From the NCBI GenBank assembly GCA_947507155.1, contig CANNOC010000006.1, positions 34,787 to 98,786 on the forward strand: DNA of 64,000 bases, given 5' to 3'. The translations under genes were made by a program, and so were the position numbers. The DNA is from an uncultured Collinsella sp. GTDB taxonomy: Bacteria > Actinomycetota > Coriobacteriia > Coriobacteriales > Coriobacteriaceae. The notes beneath the pieces were generated by a model. That model made no database searches. It had not been told where the DNA came from and worked only from the letters and a program-made list of their open reading frames with translations. The first letter of the stretch is position 1. Each line of letters opens with the position of its first letter. This document shows, in pieces, positions 52,975 through 64,000 of this stretch.

Positions 52975-53050
52975 GTGATTTTTCTGGGACGGGGATTAAA
53001 AAATCATTGTGTACCTAATGATTTTTTAATCCCCGTCCCAGAAAAATCAC
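52975..53050. repeat. REPIN-like inverted doublet of the REP-like hairpin
   Basis: 34-nt perfect inverted arms (52975-53008 and 53017-53050) around 8-nt spacer GTGTACCT; each arm is itself TGATTTTT-loop-AAAAATCA. Confidence 0.9.
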
Positions 53051-55999: not shown

Positions 56000-56036
56000 A
56001 CAAATGAGCCAGTGGCGTTTGCCCTGAATCATTTGT
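56000..56036. other. Small intergenic inverted repeat between aroQ and glf
   Basis: ACAAATGA ... 21 nt ... TCATTTGT. Confidence 0.5.
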
Positions 56037-56069
56037 AACTGTTCGATTGACATACAAAGGAGCATATCC

Positions 56070-57194
56070 ATGTCCCAGTACGATTACCTTGTCGTCGGTG
56101 CCGGCCTTTCGGGTGCCGTCTTTGCCAATGCCGCCAAGCGCGCCGGCAAGTCGGTCCTGGTCATCGACCGCCGCGATCACATCGCCGGCAACATCTACAC
56201 CGAGGACGTCGAGGGCATCCAGGTCCACCGCTACGGCGCGCACATCTTCCACACCTCCATGAAGGACGTCTGGGACTACGTCAACCGCTTCGCCGAGTTC
56301 AACAACTACGTCAACTCGCCGGTCGCCAACTTCCACGGCAACATGTACAACATGCCCTTCAACATGAACACTTTCGCCAAGATGTGGCCGGGCGTCGTCA
56401 CGCCGGCAGACGCCAAGGCCAAGATCGCCGAGCAGGTGGCCGCCGAGAAAATCGGCGAGCCGCAGAACCTCGAGGAGCAGGCGCTGTCGCTCGTCGGCCG
56501 CGACATCTTCGAGACGCTCGTGAAGGGCTACACCGAGAAGCAGTGGGGCCGTGATTGCAAGGACCTGCCCGCGAGCATCATCAAGCGCCTCCCCTGCCGC
56601 TTTACCTACGACAACAACTACTTCAACGACCGCTACCAGGGCATCCCCATGGGCGGCTACACCAAAATGGTCGCCAACATGCTCGAGGGGATCGAGGTGC
56701 GCTGCGGCGTGGAGTACAAGGAGCTGATCGCCGCCGAGCCCGATATCGCCGCCAAAACGATCTACTGCGGCCCCATCGACGCGTTCTACGACTTCAAGCT
56801 GGGCACGCTGGAGTATCGCAGCCTGCGCTTTGAGACCGAGACGCTCGACGAGCAGGACCACCAGGGCGTGGCCGTGGTCAACTATACCGAGCGCGAGATC
56901 CCCTACACCCGCATCATCGAGCACAAGCACTTTGAGTTCGGCACGCAGGACAAGACCGTCATCACGCGCGAGTACCCGGCCGACTGGAAGCCCGGCGACG
57001 AGCCCTACTACCCCATCAACGACGCCAAGAACGAGGCCCTGTACAAGCAGTACGAGGAGCTGGCGGCGCAGGAGGGCGACGTAATCTTTGCCGGTCGCCT
57101 GGGCGGCTACAAGTACTACGACATGGACAAGGCCATCGCTGCCGCCTTCGAGCTCGTCCGCAAAGAGCTGGGCGTGGAGCCCACGGAGGCGTAA
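56070..57194 (+). CDS. glf: UDP-galactopyranose mutase
   Basis: YLVVGAGLSGAVFANAAKRAGKSVLVIDRRDHIAGNIYTEDVEGIQVHRYGAHIFHT...GRLGGYKYYDMD. Confidence 0.97.
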   Translation: MSQYDYLVVGAGLSGAVFANAAKRAGKSVLVIDRRDHIAGNIYTEDVEGIQVHRYGAHIFHTSMKDVWDYVNRFAEFNNYVNSPVANFHGNMYNMPFNMNTFAKMWPGVVTPADAKAKIAEQVAAEKIGEPQNLEEQALSLVGRDIFETLVKGYTEKQWGRDCKDLPASIIKRLPCRFTYDNNYFNDRYQGIPMGGYTKMVANMLEGIEVRCGVEYKELIAAEPDIAAKTIYCGPIDAFYDFKLGTLEYRSLRFETETLDEQDHQGVAVVNYTEREIPYTRIIEHKHFEFGTQDKTVITREYPADWKPGDEPYYPINDAKNEALYKQYEELAAQEGDVIFAGRLGGYKYYDMDKAIAAAFELVRKELGVEPTEA

Positions 57195-57224
57195 ACAAGG
57201 CGGCCATAAACACACAAGCAGGAA

Positions 57225-57253
57225 GCCCGGCACAGTTTATTGCTGTGCCGGGC
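57225..57253 (+). terminator. Terminator-like hairpin after glf
   Basis: 11-bp stem GCCCGGCACAG/CTGTGCCGGGC followed by CTATTTAT. Confidence 0.7.
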
Positions 57254-57360
57254 CTATTTATAGAGCGATCGAAACGCACCATTTCCATTTGAGAAAATAG
57301 GCTGCAAGTCATCCCCATGTCTTGCAGCCTTTGTTTAAACAATAGCACGCCCACGTGCCA

Positions 57361-57392
57361 AAAAACAAAGACCCGGCATTAAACCGGGTCTT
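57361..57392 (-). terminator. Intrinsic terminator downstream of tRNA-Arg(TCT)
   Basis: AAGACCCGG/CCGGGTCTT stem; minus-strand tail TTTGTTTTTTGG. Confidence 0.8.
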
Positions 57393-57403
57393 CAAAAACT
57401 CTC

Positions 57404-57480
57404 TGGTGCTCCATGGCGGATTCGAACCGTCGACCTTGGGATTAGAAGTCCCCTGCTCTATCCAACTGAGCTAATGGAGC
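57404..57480 (-). tRNA. tRNA-Arg (anticodon TCT)
   Basis: Minus strand GCTCCATTAGCTCAGTTGGATAGAGCAGGGGACTTCTAATCCCAAGGTCGACGGTTCGAATCCGCCATGGAGCA-CCA; CCA encoded. Confidence 0.95.
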
Positions 57481-57533
57481 ATAAGGCCGCACGTCCAAGT
57501 GGGTACAAGTTCACACGGCTAATAAATTATAAC

Positions 57534-58301
57534 CTACTTGAACTGGTCGTGGTATGCCTTGCAGACCTCATCCACGGGGCCATCCATGCGCAGGTCACCC
57601 TTCTCGATCCATACGGCACGCTGGCAAATGCGCTCAACCTGCTCCATGGAGTGAGAAACGAATAAGACCGTGACGTCACCACTCTCGATAAAGTGCTGAA
57701 TGCGACGCTCGCACTTCTGCTGGAAAAAGACATCGCCAACAGAAAGCGTCTCATCGACGATGAGAATATCGGGCTCGGTAATCGTGGCGATAGCAAAGGC
57801 AATGCGTGCGACCATACCCGAAGAGAAGTTCTTCAAGGGCATGTCAACGAAGTCTTTAAGCTCAGCGAACTCAATGATCTCGTCAAAACTAGCGTCGATA
57901 AACTCCTTGGTATAGCCAAGCAGCGCACCGTTCAGATAGATATTCTCACGCGCGGTAAGCTCCGGGTCAAAGCCGGCACCGAGCTCAATCAGTGGCGCGA
58001 TATTGCCGTGGACCTTAACCTCGCCTTCGCTGGGCTCCAAAACGCCAGCGATGATCTTGAGCATCGTAGACTTACCGGAACCGTTAGTACCAACAAGACC
58101 AACAACCTCGCCGCGATGCACATCAAACGAAATGTGCTTAAGCGCACGGAATTCTTCAAAGAACAGCTCGTGCTTTGCGAGCTTAATAAAGTACTCCTTG
58201 AGGTTTGTAAGCGACTCAGACGCCATATTAAAGATCATGGTGACGTCTTTGACCTCAACAGCAAGGGGCTGCTTGCTGTAATCAATAGCAGATTCAGTCA
58301 T
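57534..58301 (-). CDS. ABC transporter ATP-binding protein, polysaccharide export (Wzt/TagH-like)
   Basis: GEVVGLVGTNGSGKSTMLKIIAGVLEPSEGEVKVHGNIAPLIELGAGFDPELTARENIYLNGALLGY; start at 58301 with AAGGAG upstream. Confidence 0.93.
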   Translation of the reverse strand: MTESAIDYSKQPLAVEVKDVTMIFNMASESLTNLKEYFIKLAKHELFFEEFRALKHISFDVHRGEVVGLVGTNGSGKSTMLKIIAGVLEPSEGEVKVHGNIAPLIELGAGFDPELTARENIYLNGALLGYTKEFIDASFDEIIEFAELKDFVDMPLKNFSSGMVARIAFAIATITEPDILIVDETLSVGDVFFQQKCERRIQHFIESGDVTVLFVSHSMEQVERICQRAVWIEKGDLRMDGPVDEVCKAYHDQFK

Positions 58302-58313
58302 GAACAGCACTCC

Positions 58314-59159
58314 TTAAATGTAGAGAATAAACTTGTGCTCGGTCTTATGAAATACGGTATAGCCAATAGCAAGAGCAAGAATAGCCCAGGCAACACATAA
58401 GCCGAACGTAAGCGCAGAAGGCACGGTATTGAACAGGAAGATATCACGCATAAACTGGAGATAGTTGTACATGGGATTCACAACCACCAGCACCTGGATC
58501 CAATGTGCCATTTGGCTAATGTAATCGGTCGTCCAGAAAATAGGCGTCAGATACATCCAGGCCGTGATAACAACGGTCCACAGGTGCATAACGTCGCGGA
58601 AAAAGACCGCCAGCGCCGACAGCATCATGCCCAAGCCCATGCAGAAACACATAAGCAACAGCAAGCAAACCGGCAGCAGAATTAAATGCCAGGTAGGGAC
58701 AACACGGAAAAAGAGCATAACAAGGGCGACGGCAACCAAAGAGAAGGAAAAGTTGACAAGAGAAAACAGCACCTTCTGCACCGGAAACACCCAGCGATGG
58801 ACCTTAACCTTCTTAAGCAGAGAAGACGCCCAAATGATGGACATGAGCGCCTGGTTCGTCGACTCGGACATGACGGAGAACGTAATGTTACCGACAATCA
58901 GATACAACGGATACATTTCAGGCGTAATTGATCCATTGCGGCTCTGGCCAAAAATCGTCGAAAACACAATCGACATAACAACCATCATCAGCAGTGGGTT
59001 AAGCACGGACCAAGCTACGCCCAAAACGCTGCGACGATACTTAATCTTAAAATCCTTGGTAACCAGCTGCCTAAGGATAAATTTATCCTTCTCATAATCA
59101 TTTTTAGCGTGAGAGGCCGGTTTAGCCACCGCTTTCTGACTCTCAAGATTGTCAGCCAC
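58314..59159 (-). CDS. ABC transporter permease, polysaccharide export (Wzm/TagG-like)
   Basis: FKIKYRRSVLGVAWSVLNPLLMMVVMSIVFSTIFG and multi-TM; likely GTG start at 59159 preceded by AAGGAGA. Confidence 0.9.
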   Translation of the reverse strand: MADNLESQKAVAKPASHAKNDYEKDKFILRQLVTKDFKIKYRRSVLGVAWSVLNPLLMMVVMSIVFSTIFGQSRNGSITPEMYPLYLIVGNITFSVMSESTNQALMSIIWASSLLKKVKVHRWVFPVQKVLFSLVNFSFSLVAVALVMLFFRVVPTWHLILLPVCLLLLMCFCMGLGMMLSALAVFFRDVMHLWTVVITAWMYLTPIFWTTDYISQMAHWIQVLVVVNPMYNYLQFMRDIFLFNTVPSALTFGLCVAWAILALAIGYTVFHKTEHKFILYI

Positions 59160-59321
59160 GGACCATCTCCTTGTCTCGTAAAACATAACAGTGGAAAGTA
59201 TAGCCCTCCCACGTAGACGATAACTCACCGCAACAAATCTGGAGAACTAACCCATATCTAATCAAAGGGGGCAGGCGATAGGTATACTTTCGACCAGATG
59301 AGTCATTAAAGGAGGTCCTAC

Positions 59322-60251
59322 ATGGACTATTCGAATACCGCCGTCATAATCCCCTGTTACAACGAAGCGTTGACGATTGGCAAAGTTGTCGACGATTTTC
59401 ATCGAGAGCTGCCCGGCGCAGTTGTCTATGTTTACGACAACAACTCGTCCGATGACACTTCGCAAGTCGCCAAGCAACACGGAGCTACGGTGCGCCACGA
59501 GCCCAGGCAGGGCAAAGGCAACGTATGCCGCCAAATGTTCCGTGATGTCAATGCCGAATGCTACCTGATGGTCGACGGCGACGATACATACCCTGCCGAA
59601 GCTGCCAAGTCGCTCTGCAATCCCATCCTTAACGGCGAAGCAGACATGACCGTCGGCGACCGTCTCTCTAATGGCACCTATGCCGAAGAGAATAAACGGG
59701 CCTTTCACGGCTTTGGCAACAACCTTGTTCGCGCCATGATTAAGTGGATTTACGGTTACAGCTTTGACGACGTGATGACCGGCTACCGAGCCATGAGCAA
59801 ACCCTTCGTCAAGACCTTCCCCGTTTTGAGTGAGGGCTTCCAGATCGAAACCGAGCTCTCCATCCACGCCGTCGATCACCGCTGGCGCATTCAAGACGTG
59901 CCGGTGGAGTATCGAGATAGGCCCGCAGGCTCCGAGTCCAAGCTCAACACAGTTAGCGACGGTATTAAAGTCATAGCAATGATTGGCACACTCTTTAAAG
60001 ACTATCGTCCCCTCAAGTTCTTCAGTCTTATCGCGATCATCTTTGCCATCATAGGGCTTGCCCTCGGTATACCAATCGTCGCAGAGTACTTCCAGACCGG
60101 ATTAGTCCCTCGCTTCCCCACCGCAATGCTCGCTGTCGCATTTATGTTCCTATGCGGGTTAAGCCTGGCAACGGGACTTATCCTCGACTCGGTTGCGAAG
60201 GTCGAGCGAAAGCAATGGGAGCTACAAGCCTATAAAACCTATGCAAAATAA
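59322..60251 (+). CDS. GT2-family glycosyltransferase (polyprenyl-phosphate glycosyltransferase-like) with C-terminal TM helices
   Basis: AVIIPCYNEALTIGKVVDDFHRELPGAVVYVYDNNSSDDT...YLMVDGDDTYPAEAA...DDVMTGYRAMSKPFVKTFPVLSEGFQIETELSIHA. Confidence 0.9.
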   Translation: MDYSNTAVIIPCYNEALTIGKVVDDFHRELPGAVVYVYDNNSSDDTSQVAKQHGATVRHEPRQGKGNVCRQMFRDVNAECYLMVDGDDTYPAEAAKSLCNPILNGEADMTVGDRLSNGTYAEENKRAFHGFGNNLVRAMIKWIYGYSFDDVMTGYRAMSKPFVKTFPVLSEGFQIETELSIHAVDHRWRIQDVPVEYRDRPAGSESKLNTVSDGIKVIAMIGTLFKDYRPLKFFSLIAIIFAIIGLALGIPIVAEYFQTGLVPRFPTAMLAVAFMFLCGLSLATGLILDSVAKVERKQWELQAYKTYAK

Positions 60252-60287
60252 GAAGAAGCCCGGACTTAAGCCGGACCTCTTCTTATT
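60247..60287. terminator. Probable bidirectional terminator between convergent glycosyltransferase genes
   Basis: 17-nt imperfect arms AATAAGAAGAAGCCCGG/CCGGACCTCTTCTTATT. Confidence 0.7.
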
Positions 60288-62124
60288 TAAGACCTAAATA
60301 CTGTTCCCAGAACTCTCGCGAAGTCATATAAGGCATAGCATCTTTCCATGCCCCCCTGACGCTCTTACCTTCTTTACGATATCGCGTCATCAGTTCGTGC
60401 TCTCGGCGGCGAATGCTCTTAAATCGTACTCGATCCATCGTGCGGACCGATCCCTTCTCGCGGGTCGGATCAAGAAAGACCAGCGTCTTGCAACGTGTCG
60501 AGTTACCTTCAAGCGTACAGCTGCCGTTCTTAACAACATAACCGGGCTTCCCGCGCAACAGCGCATCGGGAAGATAGTGTTTGTCGTAAGGAATAGATCT
60601 CCAATACTTCATAAATTTCGAGGGATGGAATTCCAGATTAACATTAGCGAGTATTTGCTCCGTAACCCCGCCCTTGCGAAGAAGCTCTGGATCCATTTCG
60701 GAAACAGGGATCAGTTTTTCGTTTAACTTACCCTTGCCGATCATCGTCGCGGCGCCATCAAGCTTCTGGAGATACTCAGGGCCACGCAGATAATCCTCAA
60801 AGCCATCGAGAATAAACTCGGCAGCTTGATAGTCCATATCGCGCAAGTTCTGACGTACCCCTCGCTGAATACGAAGGACAAACATCTTCTCATCAGCACA
60901 ATCATCGAGAGCAATCATGGCAAAGAAGTTGCGGAAGTACTGGTAGCAATCAACCGAAGCGCGGAAACGCCCCTCAAAGCTTGCATGCCACACGCAAATG
61001 CAATTCATGGTCATGTAGACAGGCTTATTGCGCATGCCAAACTCGACGTCGTCGCAGCGGATAAAGAAAGGCATGGGAAGGCCGTTCTTTTCGATAGCCT
61101 TCACCGGAATGCAGCTATACCACCAAGCTCCATAGGCCTGATCAACTTCAACGTTCGTGCGTTCATTTTCGAGGATGTCGGACAGTTTGCCAACATTCAG
61201 GTCCTCTTTTACGCGACGATAGGCACCAGAAGAAGCCACATACGAGACATCCTCAAACTGACGAGCAGGATCTTCCATTGAGAGCATAGCGCCGTTAATA
61301 AAGGCATCCTTATATTTGCCCTTAGCAAGAGAGAGCAGGTTGAAGGTACGAATCAAACTCTCGGGCATGATGGAAACATCATCGTCCATCAAAATGATAT
61401 GGGTGAACTGACCAGGAGTTTCGGTGGCCGCCATCATACCACGTGCAAATCCTCCCGAACCGCCCGTGTTGGGGTTCGGAAGCACGGTAACCAGATCATC
61501 GGAAAGTGATGCAGAATCGAGCGTCTGGCCATTGTCGACGACAAACATGTGGAAGTGGTCACGAATCGGACCGCCCTCTTTAGAGATGCCGGTTTTAACG
61601 AGTTCAATGTTTGGAAGAATGTACTGCTCATTCTTAAATGTGGTAGTAGAAAGAGCAAGATTGATCTGGTTAATTGAGTCCTCAGGAACATCAGTCAGAT
61701 AAGAGGCGTTCAAGAGGTCTACGGAATAGCCCTCATCGCTCTCAATCCTAAAACCGATTAAGTCGTAGCCGGTTGTATCGATATCAATATCGAGAACGCA
61801 AGGATCAACTTCATCGCCATCAAAAGGATTTGATTTAAGCTCGACAGGATTCAGCTCGCCAGATCTCACTCCATGAACGACAACCCGGCCTCTGCCAAAT
61901 AAAGCCATATGCAAGACGACGCTGTCAACAGACGCATACTGATGCCATTTGCCAGCAGATAAGCCATTTACATACGTCAGAAAGTCAACGTTTCCATTGA
62001 TATGAAGTGAATGAAAGTCGTCACCATATAAGGCATCACCGGAGAGCACACGATAGTAAAGCTCGGGATGCATGGTCGCATGCTTATCGACCCGGAGGAT
62101 TATATTTGCCAGTTTAAAAATCAT
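60283..62124 (-). CDS. GlfT2-like galactofuranosyltransferase (GT2 family)
   Basis: NPNTGGSGGFARGMM, ILMDDDVSI, VDQAYGAWWYSCIPVKAIEKNGLPMPFFIRCDDVEFGMRN, CVWHASFEGRF; N-terminal beta-sandwich-like region. Confidence 0.85.
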   Translation of the reverse strand: MIFKLANIILRVDKHATMHPELYYRVLSGDALYGDDFHSLHINGNVDFLTYVNGLSAGKWHQYASVDSVVLHMALFGRGRVVVHGVRSGELNPVELKSNPFDGDEVDPCVLDIDIDTTGYDLIGFRIESDEGYSVDLLNASYLTDVPEDSINQINLALSTTTFKNEQYILPNIELVKTGISKEGGPIRDHFHMFVVDNGQTLDSASLSDDLVTVLPNPNTGGSGGFARGMMAATETPGQFTHIILMDDDVSIMPESLIRTFNLLSLAKGKYKDAFINGAMLSMEDPARQFEDVSYVASSGAYRRVKEDLNVGKLSDILENERTNVEVDQAYGAWWYSCIPVKAIEKNGLPMPFFIRCDDVEFGMRNKPVYMTMNCICVWHASFEGRFRASVDCYQYFRNFFAMIALDDCADEKMFVLRIQRGVRQNLRDMDYQAAEFILDGFEDYLRGPEYLQKLDGAATMIGKGKLNEKLIPVSEMDPELLRKGGVTEQILANVNLEFHPSKFMKYWRSIPYDKHYLPDALLRGKPGYVVKNGSCTLEGNSTRCKTLVFLDPTREKGSVRTMDRVRFKSIRRREHELMTRYRKEGKSVRGAWKDAMPYMTSREFWEQYLGLK

Positions 62125-62270
62125 ACGTAATTCCTGTATCTAAAATGACTCCAATGAACGGGTTGCGAACACTGAATCTTCGAGGACGCGATCGGGTCTA
62201 AATTAGCCTAGCGCGCCTAGCAGCATTATGATTCGGCGCACAGACTCGCCACGAGTCGTCGCCAAGGCAA

Positions 62271-63338
62271 CTAACTCAACGCCGCCCAATCCAACTTGCG
62301 CATCTGCTCCATTGTCGACCGCAAACCATTGTCGATATTATAGCGAGCCCTCCACCCTAGACCTCGAGCTTTTGAGCCGTCCATAAGTGCCAGCGTAGCC
62401 ATAGAATATCCCGCCGCCTCCTGAGCATCGGGCAAATCAAAGGAAACACCTACGCCTCCATTCTTGGCAACAAGCTCGGCAAGGTCTTTCAAAGAGATAT
62501 CGGACCCAGTATCAGCAAGATTGTAAGCCTCGCCATCCACGCCAAGCAACATCACGTGCAGCAAGCCGGACACGGCATCCGCAGCATGCAAATAGGAGAA
62601 CTTTTGCGTTCCTTCGCTCTTGAGTACAACATCTTCGCCCAGAAGAGATCGACGCATGAACTGGGATAAAGCTTTAGAATCGTCATTAAGCAGCGTCGGA
62701 CCGTAGACACGAGCGATGCGCGCAATTACGGCCTTAACGTCCCTCTGTGAACGATATGCCTGACACATGGCTTCGCCCAAACGCTTGGATTCGTTATAGC
62801 ACGCACGCAAAGTATTACAGTCAATATTTCCACAATACTGCTCATCGAAGCGTTCAACGTCACCGCGATTCTGGCCGTAAATCTCAACGGACGAAGCAAA
62901 TAGCAATCTAGCGCCGCTGTCGGCAGAGAACTCAAGCAAATTCTGAAGCCCATCGACGTTCGCGCGAATAGTGCCTATTGGATCAGACGAGTACTGACGG
63001 GGATGCGTGGAGCTCGCTAGGTGCAAAACAAAGTCAGCTGGACAAGTCGGACGATAGCCAGCGGACGAAACGGAAGCCTCCTCAAACGAAAAGTGGCATG
63101 ACTTAAAGTACGGAAGCCTCAATCGGGCCTTTTCGATATTGCGACCCAACGCAACAATATTGCAATCTAATTCAGCCGTCTCATTCTTTCGCATCAGAAC
63201 GTCAATGAAAAACGCACCAATCATTCCGGTCGCACCGGAGACAACAACCGTCTTCTCCTTAAAGTCATTCCAAGGAAGATCGAGATTGCATACGGCATCA
63301 AGATCGGCAACGTATTCAGTGCAGGCCAATCTATTCAT
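62271..63338 (-). CDS. NAD-dependent epimerase/dehydratase (SDR family)
   Basis: KTVVVSGATGMIGAFFIDVLMRKNE...LHLASSTHPRQYSSDP...NESKRLGEAMCQAYRSQ; start MNRLACTEYV at 63338. Confidence 0.88.
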   Translation of the reverse strand: MNRLACTEYVADLDAVCNLDLPWNDFKEKTVVVSGATGMIGAFFIDVLMRKNETAELDCNIVALGRNIEKARLRLPYFKSCHFSFEEASVSSAGYRPTCPADFVLHLASSTHPRQYSSDPIGTIRANVDGLQNLLEFSADSGARLLFASSVEIYGQNRGDVERFDEQYCGNIDCNTLRACYNESKRLGEAMCQAYRSQRDVKAVIARIARVYGPTLLNDDSKALSQFMRRSLLGEDVVLKSEGTQKFSYLHAADAVSGLLHVMLLGVDGEAYNLADTGSDISLKDLAELVAKNGGVGVSFDLPDAQEAAGYSMATLALMDGSKARGLGWRARYNIDNGLRSTMEQMRKLDWAALS

Positions 63339-63975
63339 CACGAGCTTCTTTCTCCGCAGCCCACGCGCGGAAGAATTCAAGGTTCTCGGGCGTGGTGAGC
63401 TTAATATTCCTGTCAGAGCCAGCGGCAAAGTTAAGCCTAACGCCCAGCTGGACCATCATCGTGTTCGTGTAGTTGGACCCGTCAATTCCCACGCTTTTCT
63501 CGAACGCCTCATGATACTTGGAGTCAAGGAGATCGAACCGGTATGCCTGTGGGGTTGAAACACGACGGAGCGTTTCACGCGGAATATACTGCGTGGTGGT
63601 GGTTGGGTCCTCCTCATCAATGATAAAAATCTGCTCGTTATAGGACATGCTTGTCACGGCATTCCCATGACTCTTCGCCACACGAATAACATCGGTAATA
63701 ACCTCGGGATCGAGCATGGGACGCACGCCATCGTGCACTATACAAATATCATCCTCAGAGAGTTTGCCTTCGAGGTTGTACACGCCGTTACGAATAGACT
63801 CTTGACCCGACGTTCCGCCTTTAACGATCCACCTTAACTTATCAATCTTGTATTGTTTCGCATACGCGACAAGAACCTGTTCCCAGCCATCCAGGCAAAC
63901 TACCTCAATCGAATCCACAAGCGGATGATTCTGAAAGTCCTCGAGAGTATAAACAATGACGGGTTTCTCCCCCAC
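63331..63975 (-). CDS. IspD/TarI-like cytidylyltransferase, apparently lacking its N-terminal nucleotide-binding segment
   Basis: LINVGEKPVIVYTLEDFQNHPLVDSIEVVCLDGWE...IVKGGTSGQESIRNGVYNLEGKLSEDDICIVHDGVRPMLDPEVITDVI; in-frame TAA at 63987-63985, GTG at 63975. Confidence 0.8.
   Translation of the reverse strand: MGEKPVIVYTLEDFQNHPLVDSIEVVCLDGWEQVLVAYAKQYKIDKLRWIVKGGTSGQESIRNGVYNLEGKLSEDDICIVHDGVRPMLDPEVITDVIRVAKSHGNAVTSMSYNEQIFIIDEEDPTTTTQYIPRETLRRVSTPQAYRFDLLDSKYHEAFEKSVGIDGSNYTNTMMVQLGVRLNFAAGSDRNIKLTTPENLEFFRAWAAEKEARDE
63822..63846 (+). repeat. Left arm of inverted repeat (partner at window edge)
   Basis: TAACGATCCACCTTAACTTATCAAT; inverted match to 63976-64000 (21/21 then 3/4). Confidence 0.95.
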
Positions 63976-64000
63976 ATTAATAAGTTAAGGTGGATCGTTA
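63976..64000 (-). repeat. Right arm of inverted repeat, truncated by window end
   Basis: ATTAATAAGTTAAGGTGGATCGTTA, inverted copy of 63822-63846. Confidence 0.95.

Follow-up and report, generated by a model that had tools for sequence, protein, structure and literature searches.

An inverted repeat at the end of a cytidylyltransferase gene fragment is very probably a fold-back of technical origin where a contig ends

The inverted repeat that closes the window, by which is meant the whole stretch of 64,000 nucleotides analyzed here, is with very high probability a technical artefact of some kind, all technical routes being taken together, and the most likely route is self-priming of a hairpin during library preparation. 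The window represents positions 34787-98786 of contig C6, which is 98,786 bases long, so that the contig, too, ends at base 64000. The terminal arm of the repeat, 21 nt of exact inverted copy of the inner arm, lies at offset 0 from this base; the match, which according to the earlier note stops only because the window ends, stops because the contig does.

The repeat itself is as had been described. Its arms (63822-63846 and 63976-64000) are 25 nt long, are complementary at 24 of 25 positions (96%), and are separated by 129 nt; they contain a perfect core of 21 nt, in which 63822-63842 is the inverted copy of 63980-64000, with 137 nt between the perfect arms. The 21-nt match is far beyond chance, the core having no further match at three or fewer mismatches within the window and none in 100 shuffles. 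When each interior position of the window was taken as a pseudo-end and examined for a flush inverted match of at least 16 nt within 3 kb, no match with a loop of 50 nt or more was found, and the sole other match was a short-loop hairpin ending at 53,050. This long and near-perfect hairpin (about 52975-53050; 34-nt arms, 8-nt loop) lies between two aromatic amino-acid synthesis genes and is perhaps a terminator. The features at the end of the window are listed in Table 1.

Table 1. Features at the end of the window (positions are those of the window)
Feature	Position	Strand	Description
Inner arm	63822-63842	+	Native coding sequence of the IspD/TarI-like gene (minus-strand gene, ...DKLRWIVKG...); template of the fold-back; within an uninterrupted cytidylyltransferase frame that matches IspD profiles (residues 2-204)
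Likely priming seed	63976-63983	+	Native ATTAATAA, pairing with TTATCAAT at 63839-63846 (4 nt perfect, 7/8 overall); exact breakpoint inferred
Artificial extension	63984-64000	+	About 17 nt, inverted copy of the inner arm, non-native; replaces the conserved PKQF codons of relatives; flush with the last base of C6
IspD/TarI-like cytidylyltransferase, 5'-incomplete	63331-63983	-	About 25 N-terminal codons, including the nucleotide-binding loop, absent from the assembly; relatives intact

A survey of contig ends places this repeat in a small class. The 3 kb adjoining each end of 49 contigs (98 ends) were compared, contig C50 being left out as it consists of N throughout, and a flush inverted copy longer than 11 nt was found at two ends only, those of C6 (21 nt) and C23 (26 nt). 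Exactly 55 nt, and never more, are shared or repeated at 36 of the 98 ends, and because these ends overlap by exactly 55 nt, the assembly is a de Bruijn assembly with a final k of 55. The earlier argument, by which the 21-nt length points to an assembly k-mer, fails on this value and on the 26-nt length of the fold-back at C23. Neither fold-back end has a 55-nt overlap with any other of the 98 ends, and the C6 end shares at most 10 nt with all other contig-end regions (3 kb each); in the assembly graph the two ends are therefore dead ends, as opposed to branches. Flush fold-backs longer than 7 nt are absent from 27 contig ends of public relatives, which suggests that they are uncommon in draft contigs. 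The ends of C2, C7, C25, C29, C35, C36, and C44 finish in one common repeated element (CCATTTCTTGGACATGAGAAATGGGAGG...) that looks like the terminus of an insertion sequence present in multiple copies; a 13-nt palindrome belonging to this element is found 10-14 bases from the contig end.

The window cytidylyltransferase has no close homologue in the family (67 genomes, 66 of them other than the present one, were searched), the same genus included, which suggests horizontal acquisition of the gene. The direct comparison with native sequence was therefore made at the twin fold-back of C23, and the window gene was compared with more distant relatives, from which the native base at its junction was also deduced. 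The end region of C23 (C23:31651-34650) finishes in a second flush fold-back, which takes up the last 335 bases and has arms of 26 nt with 283 nt between them, and the contig terminates within a DUF1648 gene. The same gene in nine same-genus genomes has 97-100% protein identity and an open frame of 221-223 codons, compared with 204 here. The DNA of these genomes agrees with that of C23 through the sequence TTATCA, 21 to 26 bases from the contig end, but past it 13-15 of the 20 terminal bases differ, the relatives having native sequence and C23 an inverted copy of sequence 283 nt inside. A search of the assembly with the DNA of a relative gave a match that ends at C23:34630, 20 bases short of the contig end. 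TTATCA (6 nt) is also present at the corresponding place in the inner arm, and its occurrence in both arms suggests that it served as the priming seed; comparison with the nine relatives shows that, of the two arms, only the inner one is native. A search of the assembly for the sequence that lies upstream of the DUF1648 gene in a relative gave no match, so the two sides of the C23 gap are unjoined. It was also observed that the DUF1648 gene (C23 about 33993 and 34630) is near-identical to those of same-genus relatives, yet neither flank matches the flanks of the relative in the assembly, a hint that the gene may be mobile as a unit or that its context may have been rearranged.

Comparison of the window gene with 65 related ispD/tarI loci leads to the same assignment of the arms. 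The canonical AGGxGxR...PKQF N-terminus is present in 62 of these loci, directly before the first residues that are present here; two of the other three have AAGSG instead, and in the third the visible sequence starts just before PKQF, so that the native N-terminus is kept in at least 64 of the 65. The intact N-terminus for which the earlier note proposed to look in close relatives is thus found, although in more distant relatives, the family having provided no close ones. None of the 65 loci has an inverted match of more than 10 nt between the two corresponding places. The inner arm at C6 lies in the conserved coding frame, and the terminal arm stands in place of PKQF, which identifies the former as native and the latter as non-native. 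The junction codons in the relatives are mostly those of F-I-N, often TTTATCAAT or TTTATTAAT, the second of these being the native form at the junction in seven relatives, and they fit a breakpoint within TTAT, at about 63980-63983. ATTAATAA would comprise the I-N codons and two bases of the F codon, if the F codon is TTT.

The reading frame proposed earlier for the gene is correct: on the minus strand, a TAA codon (63987-63985) is followed by CTT ATT AAT GTG GGG (LINVGEKP). The translation matches TIGR00453 (IspD) from profile position 25 of 219 (E value 3.7e-33), a match that falls short of the equivalog cut-off, and PF01128 from profile position 27 (E value 3.5e-24), a match that passes its cut-off. 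A second IspD-like gene, with a full-length profile match, is present on C25, and the window gene is therefore probably a paralogue belonging to a polysaccharide locus. The region 56000-64000 contains a polysaccharide cluster with genes, named by eye, for UDP-galactopyranose mutase-like, ABC export, glycosyltransferase, epimerase, and cytidylyltransferase proteins. A degenerate pattern search of the whole assembly found no sequence coding for IPKQF, a protein search of the assembly for the missing N-terminus returned only the truncated copy and other nucleotidyltransferases, and a motif search of the contig ends did not find it. The description of the repeat as truncating the gene is misleading: the N-terminus, with its nucleotide-binding loop, is absent from the assembly, but its absence from the organism does not follow, and the organism probably has an intact gene.

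The most likely explanation of these observations is the following sequence of events. In the library, a single-stranded fragment whose 5' end lay at 63822 would fold into a hairpin in which its 3' end (...ATTAATAA, at about 63983) anneals to TTATCAAT at 63839-63846. A polymerase would then extend the 3' end, using the 5' end of the fragment itself as template, until the template was exhausted, so that an inverted copy of 63822-63838 would be added flush with the end of the fragment, giving a molecule of about 179 nt. This size and the 335 nt implied for C23 are plausible for library fragments. The seed is directly visible at C23, as TTATCA, whereas at C6 it is TTAT or 7/8 of TTATCAAT and is partly inferred. 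The last 180 nt of the window have 43% G+C as opposed to 60% window-wide, which places them in the lowest 0.6%, a composition that is expected at a coverage gap and also suits the formation of hairpins. There is probably such a gap just past the A+T-rich end of C6, and with poor coverage beyond this spot the assembler may not have overruled the chimeric read, and the contig would end with it.

Star et al. (2014) have described products of this kind as interrupted palindromes: a short stretch of natural complementarity lets a single strand form a hairpin, extension of its 3' end then copies the 5' end of the same strand, and adapter ligation follows. The resulting palindrome is flush with the end of the molecule and joins a native 5' arm to an artificial 3' arm, and the reads concerned are A+T-rich (PMC3946424). 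Both fold-backs resemble them in having a native 5' arm, an artificial and flush 3' arm, a short natural seed, an A+T-rich composition, and 3' extension only. They differ in where they were seen, the palindromes in reads of historic DNA and the fold-backs in a bacterial draft assembly, where they make up the terminal 17-20 bases of two contigs. It should be recognized that the palindromes were rare in a modern DNA sample (PMC3946424), which counts against the hairpin route here.

Other technical routes to an inverted chimera are possible but rather unlikely. Multiple displacement amplification (MDA) with phi29 polymerase produces chimeras of which 85% are inverted, mostly primed by short complementarity and preferentially within 10 kb (PMC1855051), and pairing of partial single strands (PDSM) after sonication or enzymatic fragmentation produces inverted chimeric reads in ordinary libraries (PMC10908179). 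The fold-backs share with the MDA chimeras their inverted, short-range, and microhomology-primed character, and with those of PDSM the inversion through short complementary stretches in ordinary libraries. However, MDA inversions need not finish flush with the 5' end of the fragment itself, whereas both fold-backs fit a reaction that runs to the end of a short molecule, and this route would need phi29 amplification, of which there is no evidence here. Single-cell MDA assemblies do not typically consist of 50 contigs at 99.8% completeness, as the present one does. The PDSM chimeras are low-frequency reads in human capture sequencing, and their pairing may be intermolecular (PMC10908179). The evidence cannot strictly separate hairpin extension from MDA or single-strand pairing, all of which are artefacts.

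Of the three explanations offered in the earlier note, the dead end at C6 and the twin at C23 strongly support two in combination: the contig-end fold-back and, in its technical form (template switching via microhomology), the inverted partial duplication. The explanation by invertible, phase-variable DNA, in which a recombinase would flip the segment of about 130 nt between inverted repeats of 21-25 nt in a surface-polysaccharide locus, is unsupported and highly improbable. The setting among glycosyltransferase and polysaccharide-export genes (named by eye) is in accord with it, and a near-perfect 25-nt repeat is long enough to be a recombination site, but one of the arms belongs to the interior of a coding sequence, the other stands in place of a conserved run of codons of the nucleotide-binding region, and the repeat is present in none of the 65 related loci. 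A repeat of 25 nt would leave an assembly with k = 55 unbroken, and the coexistence of two orientations would produce a branch with 55-nt overlaps, not the unbranched dead end in which C6 finishes. Furthermore, the C23 twin is in an unrelated DUF1648 gene, which has native sequence at that place in relatives. No site-specific recombinase was evident by eye among the open reading frames of 56-64 kb.

A true inverted partial duplication in the chromosome, by which the N-terminus of the gene was destroyed, is equally hard to credit. Microhomology at the junction is also possible in biological fold-back inversions, and the native N-terminus is indeed absent from the assembly; however, a chromosomal event would have been assembled through, and two such events would need to fall precisely on contig termini, one on the last base of C6 and the other on that of C23. 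Also highly improbable is the variant in which a real short-range inversion or fold-back duplication turns off the polysaccharide nucleotidyltransferase in a fraction of the population and has acted at the C23 end as well.

The technical fold-back carries a caution for the reading of draft genomes, since the last few dozen bases of their contigs may hold fold-back copies that mimic inverted repeats and truncated genes; asking whether a contig end repeats, in inverted orientation, sequence that lies a few hundred bases further in gives a quick flag. The window gene is best annotated as "5' end missing from the assembly" and not as a pseudogene. The repeat at the end of the window is almost certainly no real biological feature, and the gene probably only appears to be broken.
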